From assembly GCA_013314775.1 (NCBI GenBank), contig JABUFB010000009.1, positions 248,001 to 312,000 on the forward strand: 64,000 nucleotides of DNA, read 5' to 3'. The position numbers and the translations under genes are program-made. Of this stretch, positions 49,692 to 52,545 are shown one piece after another. Every line of letters starts with the position of its first letter. The stretch's first letter is position 1. The notes beneath the pieces were generated by a model, which had not been told where the DNA came from, did no database searches, and worked only from the letters and a program-made list of their open reading frames with translations. The stretch is from Armatimonadota bacterium (lineage in GTDB: Bacteria > Armatimonadota > Zipacnadia > Zipacnadales > JABUFB01).

Positions 49692-50735
49692 ATGGCAGAC
49701 CACGAGCGTGTCCGCCTCACCAAAATGGCCTCCGCGGCTGGGTGAGCGGCGAAACTTGAGCCAGAGGCGCTCTCGCAGGTCCTGCGAGGGTTAGAGCCCT
49801 TTGTTGACCCCAACCTCATTGTCGGCCTGGGTACCAGCGACGATGCGGCAGTGTATCGTATTGCCCCGAGTCAGGCGGTCATCGTCACCGTGGATTACTT
49901 CACACCGGTCCACGACGACCCGCACACTTTCGGCAGGATCGCCGCCGCCAACAGCCTCAGCGACGTCTACGCCATGGGCGGGAAACCCTTCCTCGCCATC
50001 AATGTGTGCGGCTTCCCGGCGTGCAGCATGCCGCTGGAACTCATGAACGAGGTGCTCCAGGGCGGCCGTGCCATTGCTGCGGAAGCGGGCATCGCGGTGG
50101 CAGGCGGACACACTATTGACAGCCCCGAGCCTTTCTACGGCATGTGCGTTCTGGGCATGGTCCATCCGGACCGGGTCATCACAAACAGCGCAGCGCGCGA
50201 AGGCGATGTGGTGATCCTCACCAAAGCACTGGGCACGGGTATCATCATGTCCGCGATGATGTTCGACGCCGCGACACAGGAGGCGGTTGAGCGTGCCGCC
50301 GCCTCGATGACCACGCTCAACCGGCGAGCCGCCGAAATCATGGTGGACTGCGGAGCCCATGCGGCCACGGATGTCACCGGTTTCGGCCTCGTGGGCCACG
50401 GGCACGAGATGGCAGAAGGCAGCGGATTGGAGATGCACGTGGAGCTGGGCGCCGTGCCCATGTTCGCCGATGCGCTGGAGTACGCAGGGCAGTGGATCGT
50501 GACCGGCGGCGGCCAGCGAAACCGGGAGTACTACGGCCAGTGGGTGGATTTCGGCCCGGCGAGTGACGAGCAGATCGCGGTGCTGTGCGACCCGCAGACA
50601 TCGGGCGGGCTGCTGATCAGCCTGCCTCCCGACGCGGCACCGGGCGCGGTCCAACAGATGCAGGCGGAAGGACTGCCCGCGGCGATCATCGGGACCATGC
50701 GTCCGGGAGAAGCGGGACGAGTCGTCTTCCGCTGA
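49692..50735 (+). CDS. selD: selenophosphate synthetase, selenoprotein (UGA-coded Sec18)
   Basis: From ATG 49692 the frame reads MADHERVRLTKMASAAG, then TGA at 49743-49745, then AAKLEPEALSQVLRGLEP and continues through the recognised SelD body (DDAAVYR, GGHTID, TDVTGFGLVGH, CDPQTSGGLL) to 50735. This is the position of the catalytic Cys17/Sec of SelD, with Lys21 three residues on as in E. coli Cys17/Lys20. So the TGA should be decoded as selenocysteine and the protein has 347 residues. It makes selenophosphate from selenide and ATP, the donor for Sec-tRNA. The tRNA for Sec follows 105 bases downstream. An ordinary annotation would start at 49851 and lose the active site. Confidence 0.92.
49743..49797 (+). 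promoter_or_regulatory. UGA codon plus candidate bacterial SECIS hairpin
   Basis: After TGA (49743-49745), CTCGCAG at 49772-49778 pairs with CTGCGAG at 49782-49788 around a GUC loop, and GCTCT (49769-49773) can extend with AGAGC (49793-49797). The stem starts 26 bases after UGA, within the usual range for bacterial SECIS elements read by SelB, and carries a G-U in the apical part. Function is inferred from the position. Confidence 0.7.
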
Positions 50736-50806
50736 ACCCCTATGCGTAGGCCGGCCGACCCGGTCGGTGACTGCGGGCCGCGCCAAATCGTCTTCCGCTG
50801 AGCCCC
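50722..50806 (+). repeat. short direct repeat of the selD 3' end
   Basis: TCGTCTTCCGCTGAACCCC (50722-50740), spanning the selD stop, recurs with one change at 50788-50806. The copies are 66 bases apart. The second lies just before the tRNA-Sec promoter, suggesting a small local duplication. Confidence 0.7.
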
Positions 50807-50821
50807 AGAGTGTTGTATGAT
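50793..50821 (+). promoter_or_regulatory. candidate promoter of the tRNA-Sec gene
   Basis: TATGAT at 50816-50821 is a good -10, 18 bases before the mature tRNA end at 50840. A -35 TTCCGC at 50793-50798, 17 bp upstream, is poor and lies in the repeat of the selD 3' end. Read-through from selD is also possible. Confidence 0.4.
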
Positions 50822-50839
50822 ACAGGTGCCGCAAAGGTT

Positions 50840-50937
50840 GGGGGCGGATGGTGCCTGGTGGTGCTCGCGGGCTTCAAACCCGTTGCGGGGCATTGAGAGA
50901 TGTCCTGGGTGAGTTCGATTCTCACACGCCCTCGCCA
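50840..50937 (+). tRNA. selC: selenocysteine tRNA, anticodon UCA
   Basis: A 98-nt tRNA with CCA encoded. The acceptor stem pairs GGGGGCG (50840-50846) with CGCCCTC (50927-50933, one G-U); the eighth pair expected of bacterial tRNA-Sec would be G-A here. The anticodon loop CTTCAAA at 50872-50878 has UCA at 50874-50876. A long variable arm (GGGCAT with ATGTCC, loop TGAGAG) and a T-arm (GTGAG/CTCAC with TTCGATT) follow. Long variable arm, UCA and the neighbouring selD make the identity secure. Confidence 0.93.
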
Positions 50938-50967: not shown

Positions 50968-51783
50968 CTACCCCAGTTCCACCACACGCGCGTTTTCGGA
51001 CAGCATTTCCGGAGTCATGTTGTAGATAGCGTCATACAGGGCCGCTTTGAAAGACCCGGGGCCTTTGGCGTCTTTCGCCGCGATTTCCGCCGCATAGCCC
51101 AGATGCGCCAGAGCCCCTGCCGCAGCCAGGACGTGGTTGCTCTCAACCGCCGCGTAGGCCGCGACCATGGCGGTTGAACTGCAGCCGGTGCCGGTGAGGG
51201 TGGTCAGCCAGCGGTCTCCGTTGTCTACACCCAGGGCGCCTTTGCCGTCGGTGATCAGGTCCCGGGCGCCGGTCATGGCCACCGTTGCGCCCCAGGCGTT
51301 GGCCGCGAGTTTCGCCACAGCCAACGGATCGTCCAGGGTGCCGACGCTCTCCACTCCGCGCACTTCCCCACCCGCACCGATGAGGGCCGCGATTTCGCCC
51401 GGATTGCCACGCACGATGTCGGGGCCCACCTCGCGAATAATGAGCAGGTCCGTGTCGGTGCGATAGCTGGTTGCGCCTGCACCCACGGGGTCGAGCACCA
51501 CGGGGATGCCCCGCAGTCTGGCATGTTTGCCCGCACTGATCATCGCGTCGATCCACGGGCGCTCCAGGGTGCCCGTATTGAGCACCAGCGCACCGGCAAG
51601 GCCCACCATCTCCTCCACCTCTTCGGGCGCGTGGGCCATGACCGGCAACGCACCTACCTGGAGGGTCACGTTAGCGGTATCATTCATCACCACAAAGTTT
51701 GTGATCTGGTGGACAAGCGGTTTGTGTTCACGAAGCCTGCGCAGGATGTCCCCCAACCGCATCTGAATGCTGTCCGAAGACAT
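50968..51783 (-). CDS. thiM: hydroxyethylthiazole kinase
   Basis: 271 residues with ribokinase-like ThiM features: HQITNFVVMNDTANVTL near the N-terminus, LDPVGAGATSYR, IVRGNPGEIAAL and the catalytic TLTGTGCSSTAM near 195. It phosphorylates 5-(2-hydroxyethyl)-4-methylthiazole with ATP, salvaging the thiazole half of thiamine. The stop faces the tRNA-Sec gene; the start lies five bases after the thiE stop, so they are cotranslated. No TPP riboswitch core was seen before the pair. Confidence 0.95.
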   Translation of the reverse strand: MSSDSIQMRLGDILRRLREHKPLVHQITNFVVMNDTANVTLQVGALPVMAHAPEEVEEMVGLAGALVLNTGTLERPWIDAMISAGKHARLRGIPVVLDPVGAGATSYRTDTDLLIIREVGPDIVRGNPGEIAALIGAGGEVRGVESVGTLDDPLAVAKLAANAWGATVAMTGARDLITDGKGALGVDNGDRWLTTLTGTGCSSTAMVAAYAAVESNHVLAAAGALAHLGYAAEIAAKDAKGPGSFKAALYDAIYNMTPEMLSENARVVELG

Positions 51784-51788
51784 ATCGC

Positions 51789-52466
51789 TTACTCCCTGCT
51801 TGTTTCGGCGAGGCTTGCCCGAACGATCTCCGCGAGTTTGCGGGCAGCCTGCTCGGGGTCGTGAGCGGCCATGATTGCCCGGACTACCGCCACACCGTCA
51901 GCGCCGGCCCGGATCACATCAGCCGCGTTTCCATGGTCGATGCCGCCGATTGCCACCACCGGGATGGGGGAATCCGCGTAGCGTTCGCGCAACCCCTCCG
52001 GGCCTATCGGCGGCCGTATGTCGCTTTTCGTCGGGGTGCCGAAGACCGCATTGGAGCCCACGTAATCGGCGCCGTCAGCCACGGCCTGCTCAAGTTCGGC
52101 GCGGTCATGGGCCGTCACGCCGAGTATCCTGTCCGGGCCGATAATCCGTCGGACCATTGCGGCGGGGATATCGTCCTGCCCAACGTGCACCCCGTCCGCA
52201 CCCACTGCAAGAGCGACGTCCACACGGTCGTTGATAAGCAACGGAACTCCTGCCGGGCGCGTGACTGCCAGGCACTCCAGAGCCTCAGCCACGAAATCCC
52301 GGGCGCAGAGGTCCTTTTCGCGGATCTGCACCACCGTCACGCCGCCGGCAACGGCTGCCGCGACAACGTCAGCAAGTCTGCGGCCCGCAAGGAGGGCCCT
52401 GTCCGTGACAAGGTACACAGAGTAGTCCGCGCGATGAATGCTTTTGTCAGTCTGGTCTTTGGACAT
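51789..52466 (-). CDS. thiE: thiamine-phosphate synthase
   Basis: The start at 52466 (MSKDQTDK) lies six bases after a TATATT box and has no ribosome-binding site, suggesting leaderless translation. The 225-residue TIM barrel has VQIREKDL, INDRVDVALAVGADGVHVGQDD, GVTAHDRAELEQA, and GIDHGNAADVIRAGADGVAVV, all ThiE motifs. It joins the pyrimidine and thiazole phosphates to thiamine phosphate. A longer start at 52523 is unlikely because it would cross the promoter. It heads the thiE-thiM pair, with no thiC or thiG in the window. Confidence 0.93.
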   Translation of the reverse strand: MSKDQTDKSIHRADYSVYLVTDRALLAGRRLADVVAAAVAGGVTVVQIREKDLCARDFVAEALECLAVTRPAGVPLLINDRVDVALAVGADGVHVGQDDIPAAMVRRIIGPDRILGVTAHDRAELEQAVADGADYVGSNAVFGTPTKSDIRPPIGPEGLRERYADSPIPVVAIGGIDHGNAADVIRAGADGVAVVRAIMAAHDPEQAARKLAEIVRASLAETSRE

Positions 52467-52472
52467 GGGGCC

Positions 52473-52500
52473 AATATACCACGGCTCGGCAGCCCGGCAA
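52473..52500 (-). promoter_or_regulatory. promoter of thiE, leaderless
   Basis: On the minus strand TTGCCG (52500-52495) and TATATT (52478-52473) with a 16-bp spacer. The -10 ends six bases before the ATG at 52466, so the predicted start is at or next to A of the start codon. Confidence 0.5.
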
Positions 52501-52516
52501 AGGCCTCGCCGCTGTT

Positions 52517-52545
52517 TTGACAACCTCTCGGCACAGGTCTATAAT
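52517..52545 (+). promoter_or_regulatory. consensus sigma-70 promoter of purH
   Basis: TTGACA at 52517-52522 and TATAAT at 52540-52545, both perfect, spacer 17 bp. Start near 52552. It diverges from the thiE promoter 17 bases away. Confidence 0.85.

Follow-up and report, generated by a model that had tools for sequence, protein, structure and literature searches.

The selD gene in a window of 64,000 nucleotides from an Armatimonadota bacterium (G000:C9:248001–312000; draft genome of 6.12 Mb in 37 contigs, 98.5% complete) almost certainly encodes a selenophosphate synthetase that is both functional and a selenoprotein in its own right, as judged from its sequence and that of its relatives. In the phylum, the selenocysteine (Sec) trait is probably upheld by this Sec-containing SelD (Sec-SelD), possibly the sole selenoprotein in the window's genome, and, in many genomes with a cysteine form of the enzyme (Cys-SelD), by an apparently undescribed, probably secreted family with the motif FG-U-GG, an FN3/Ig-like beta-sandwich, several copies per genome and its own covarying SECIS element. 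The features of the window were as follows:

49692–50735, + strand: selD (selenophosphate synthetase; selenide, water dikinase), 347 amino acids with Sec18, assigned by translation with TGA as U, TIGR00476, the AIRS and AIRS_C domains and alignment to 3u0o
49743–49745, + strand: TGA predicted to be recoded to Sec, catalytic residue 18, assigned by comparison of SelD genes (TGA in 57 of 70, a Cys codon in 13 of 70)
49752–49754, + strand: conserved Lys21 codon AAA of the U-x-x-K motif, assigned by translation; G[UC]xxK is kept by all aligned SelD
49769–49791, + strand: putative SECIS hairpin GCTCTCGCAG - GTC - CTGCGAGGGT, assigned by fit to the bSECIS model and by comparison with a synonymous-codon null and with Cys-SelD genes
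50840–50937, + strand: tRNA-Sec (selC), anticodon TCA, encoded CCA, assigned by ARAGORN, RF01852 and linkage to selD

With TGA translated as U, the selD frame ended at a second TGA (50733) and contained U18 and K21 in the motif GUAAK. The product scored 387.9 bits against the curated profile TIGR00476 (cut-off 125) over residues 8–315, both AIR-synthase-like domains, N-terminal (PF00586, AIRS) and C-terminal (PF02769, AIRS_C), were found, and E. coli SelD (3u0o) was aligned over residues 5–345 (E 1.3e-78), with its catalytic Cys opposite U18. These results confirm the first-pass annotation, which had placed an in-frame TGA at 49743 at the catalytic Cys/Sec position, together with Lys21. It had also predicted that standard callers would start at 49851, and this agrees with translation under table 11: without recoding, the longest remaining ORF begins with GTG at 49851 and lacks the active site, which in Sec-SelD would be lost with a standard gene caller.

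Compared with Sec-containing bacterial SelD (TIGR00476, UxxK), the gene belongs to the same family and has the same recoded position, the same motif, a bSECIS directly downstream and the Sec machinery in its genome, with no difference in kind. E. coli SelD, in contrast, has Cys where the window protein has Sec and needs no SECIS for that reason; its second Cys (GCGCK) is replaced by Ala in the window protein (GUAAK), as in the 2yye protein (gcaak). Sec-SelD is an experimentally verified selenoprotein and ranks second among bacterial selenoproteins by spread (PMC13188914), and in a survey of 2015, 19% of the SelD genes were of the Sec form (PMC4561486). The class is already well known, and the window gene adds a member to it; no description of Sec or Sec-SelD in Armatimonadota was found in the literature searched.

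A total of 70 SelD genes from this and related genomes of many families, the window gene included, were read at codon level. The recoded codon, in the motif G[U/C]xxK, was TGA in 57 genes and a Cys codon in 13; neither TAA nor TAG nor any third codon type was found at the catalytic position of the 70 genes read. According to stop counts, SelD of most relatives has exactly one in-frame TGA; for five further TGA selD genes, outside the 70, the stop count is the sole evidence. The nearest named match was the Armatimonadetes MAG contig JAGPGE010000082.1, the SelD of which is 92% identical, separately assembled and retains the TGA. Two genomes (G073 and G012) carried two different Sec-SelD genes apiece. 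As far as these codons can tell, Sec-SelD is common to most selenium-using Armatimonadota.

Cys at the same codon in 13 relatives would fit a sequencing or assembly error, in which TGA stands for TGC or TGT and SelD is an ordinary Cys enzyme. Since TGA occurs at exactly the same codon in 57 of the 70 genes, directly read, from many families and including the separately assembled MAG, and since the hairpin accompanies the TGA genes, an error has next to no probability and is refuted in practice. TGC or TGT in other data had been named beforehand as an observation against recoding; in effect, the 92%-identity relative answered this with TGA. A decaying pseudogene is just as improbable: selD has one in-frame TGA, which is a premature stop in table 11, but the frame is otherwise intact, with no further disruption in 347 codons, the TIGR00476 score is high, and the site in relatives holds TGA, never TAA or TAG.

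According to the bSECIS model, a stem of 4–16 bp carries a loop of 3–9 nt with a G among its first two nucleotides, located 16–37 nt after UGA (PMC13188914). The hairpin at 49769–49791, with a 10-pair stem and a 3-nt GUC loop, agrees with the model in stem, loop, early G and spacing: counted from the TGA, the first paired base lies at 23 nt and the loop at 33 nt. A hairpin downstream of the TGA, as described in the first-pass annotation, was thus recovered, its distance of 26 bases being close to the 23 nt found here. The fold energy of this single hairpin was not exceptional (z −1.23), and the SECIS assignment is therefore carried by a comparative test, for which synonymous codons were redrawn from each gene's own usage. 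In the 57 Sec genes, a mean of 5.30 of the six inner pairs was formed, versus 3.78 (sd 0.13) in the synonymous-codon nulls, and all six pairs were formed in 74% of Sec genes versus 7% in the nulls. The 13 Cys-SelD genes showed no clear excess (3.0 pairs versus 2.7, sd 0.2). Two-sided pair changes included G-C in place of C-G at offsets 33/41 and 31/43, and U-A in place of G-C at 30/44. In these alignments, conservation of the predicted hairpin exceeds what amino acids and codon use explain.

The common hairpin was missing from nine Sec genes (G046, G073, G117, G145, G057, G081, G068, G054 and G055; the other Sec-SelD genes numbered 48). Each had another bSECIS-like stem of at least 5 pairs with different spacing, e.g. 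GGGCC-GUC-GGCCC or AAGACCTG-GTT-CAGGTCTT, so that the SECIS element seems to have moved or re-formed elsewhere; this point is weakened by stems of at least 5 pairs in 5 of the 13 Cys-SelD genes.

The tRNA with UCA anticodon and encoded CCA, proposed at 50840–50937 from the letters alone, was recovered by ARAGORN (anticodon TCA) and by Rfam RF01852 (72 bits, threshold 47; span 50840–50933, full model 1–91). SelA and SelB, which the first-pass annotation expected and whose absence it regarded as evidence against recoding, were both found on other contigs of the genome:

G000:C6:283096–284460: SelA, 550.8 bits
G000:C19:33206–35077: SelB, 382.6 bits over the joined frame

As neither selA nor selB shares the contig of selD, the operon evidence concerns selD and selC. 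In 24 genomes, selD was followed on its own strand by tRNA-Sec at a distance of at most 3 kb, in 14 of them of at most 200 bases. The tRNA-Sec gene is linked to a sel gene here as in the selABC and selDABC clusters of other bacteria (PMC5330540, PMC1794560); unlike in those clusters, selC of the window directly follows selD, selA and selB are found on other contigs, and the pairing of selD with selC is seen again in other genomes of the phylum. Across 151 genomes, SelD and SelB were both present in 68, SelD only in 5, SelB only in 2 and neither in 76 (Fisher p 5.5e-34, which overstates independence because the genomes are related); SelD in this table comprises 60 genomes with TGA and 13 with Cys. 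The genes thiM and thiE (50968–52523, − strand) are convergent to selD/selC, and no selenium link was seen. In a genome of the same genus, a 5.9-kb contig (G001:C351, L172) carried a second SelB-like gene (178.6 bits) beside a second tRNA-Sec; this contig may be contamination, the draft being listed as 6% contaminated.

Read-through of the TGA in selD would likewise be expected if TGA were a plain sense codon, e.g. for Trp under code 4. This is refuted by how rarely TGA occurs in frame: in 1.30 Mb of the genome, the selD TGA alone is flanked by coding sequence on either side and has a SECIS-like stem of at least 6 pairs. Given also that selD itself terminates with TGA (50733) and that SelA, SelB and tRNA-Sec are all present, the chance of such a code is negligible.

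Recoding to Sec and the chemistry of SelD in the cell would proceed as in the known family. The tRNA encoded just downstream of selD would first be loaded with Ser and then turned into Sec-tRNA-Sec by SelA, and SelB with Sec-tRNA-Sec would bind the hairpin at 49769–49791 and decode UGA 49743 as Sec18. By analogy with the family, Sec18 and Lys21 in a flexible N-terminal loop would handle selenide, while the AIR-synthase-like core would bind and split ATP, giving selenophosphate. This product would return to SelA and Sec-tRNA-Sec synthesis, so that SelD would be needed for its own production.

Neither FdhA nor ybbB (selenouridine synthase) was detected in the window's genome, and the FG-U-GG family gave one chance-level match only (TAA, E 0.03). 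An in-frame TGA scan of 1.30 Mb (21% of the genome) yielded no second TGA that lies within coding sequence and has a stem of at least 6 pairs; none of the 29 candidates besides selD had a stem longer than 5 pairs, and several, on inspection, read as neighbouring genes in one frame. Strict settings of the scan missed selD, and the loosened settings used were tuned on selD. Other selenoproteins, which the first-pass annotation took to be implied, were thus not borne out; nor are they implied, because Sec-SelD may maintain the Sec trait alone, and organisms without FdhA all had Sec-SelD (PMC1794560). With a scan of 21% of the genome at settings tuned on selD, SelD is possibly the only selenoprotein of this genome.

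Among the 13 Cys-SelD genomes, tRNA-Sec was present in 13 and SelB in 11, and no Sec-FdhA was detected, FdhA being either absent at family level or without in-frame stop. The Sec loci of these genomes were scanned, and genes were found whose TGA falls within a conserved domain at the C-terminus, [FY]G-U-GG..YSVRV. Members of this FG-U-GG family, with 2–4 copies in some genomes, include, among others:

L156:11413–12327
L157:5068–6051
L159:2697–4490
L215:1417–2262

A profile search gave 45 matches at E ≤1.2e-5, of which 41 had exactly one TGA and 4 no stop (Cys in G018); TAA or TAG was found in none of the 45. At codon level, 34 TGA members were read. The family was present in 8 of the 13 Cys-SelD genomes, often beside selD or tRNA-Sec, and also in some Sec-SelD genomes, e.g. 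G003 and G007. Five Cys-SelD genomes with tRNA-Sec (G047, G060, G064, G074 and G077) had no convincing FG-U-GG member and no detected Sec-FdhA.

The profile searches were queried with the family itself, and their counts describe the family and are no independent proof. Independent evidence comes from the fixed TGA column, the covariation of the SECIS and the distribution among genomes. A hairpin such as CTACTCCGTGCGAGTAG was found in every strong member, 12–18 nt after the TGA. In an alignment of 16 of these elements all cells paired, 3 of 6 pairs changed on both sides, and the covariation score was reached by 0 of 500 shuffles. Searched against the 151 genomes, a covariance model of the element gave 23 matches at E <0.01, each in a genome that carries SelB or tRNA-Sec.

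The FG-U-GG proteins fell into none of the families of Pfam or NCBIfam and showed weak FlgD Ig-like similarity only, and no PDB sequence matched them. NF049953 (Hypothetical protein DG, motif GUxG) was considered and rejected: its best score in the four genomes searched was 31.4 bits (cut-off 130), at places other than FG-U-GG genes. A structure model (pLDDT 86.8) probably includes a signal peptide; its domains are beta-sandwiches, and the final one is FN3/Ig-like. Foldseek matches were of low TM, and VIA Z values of up to 7.6 over residues 177–282 reflect the common FN3/Ig-like arrangement and demonstrate no relative. According to this model, the proteins are probably secreted or membrane-bound with a C-terminal Ig/FN3-like domain; a redox or metal role for their Sec would be a guess. 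By sequence comparison they apparently form an undescribed selenoprotein family; to judge by motifs, it is not among the 119 selenoprotein families inventoried in 2026 (PMC13188914).

In most Sec-using members of the phylum, the selenium-donor enzyme would thus depend on its own product. Sec and Cys alternate repeatedly at a single codon, with the SECIS in the Sec copies and missing from the Cys copies. The 2006 generalisation that Sec-FdhA or Sec-SelD occurs in every bacterial selenoproteome (PMC1794560) is apparently broken, because eight Cys-SelD genomes without detected Sec-FdhA have the FG-U-GG family.
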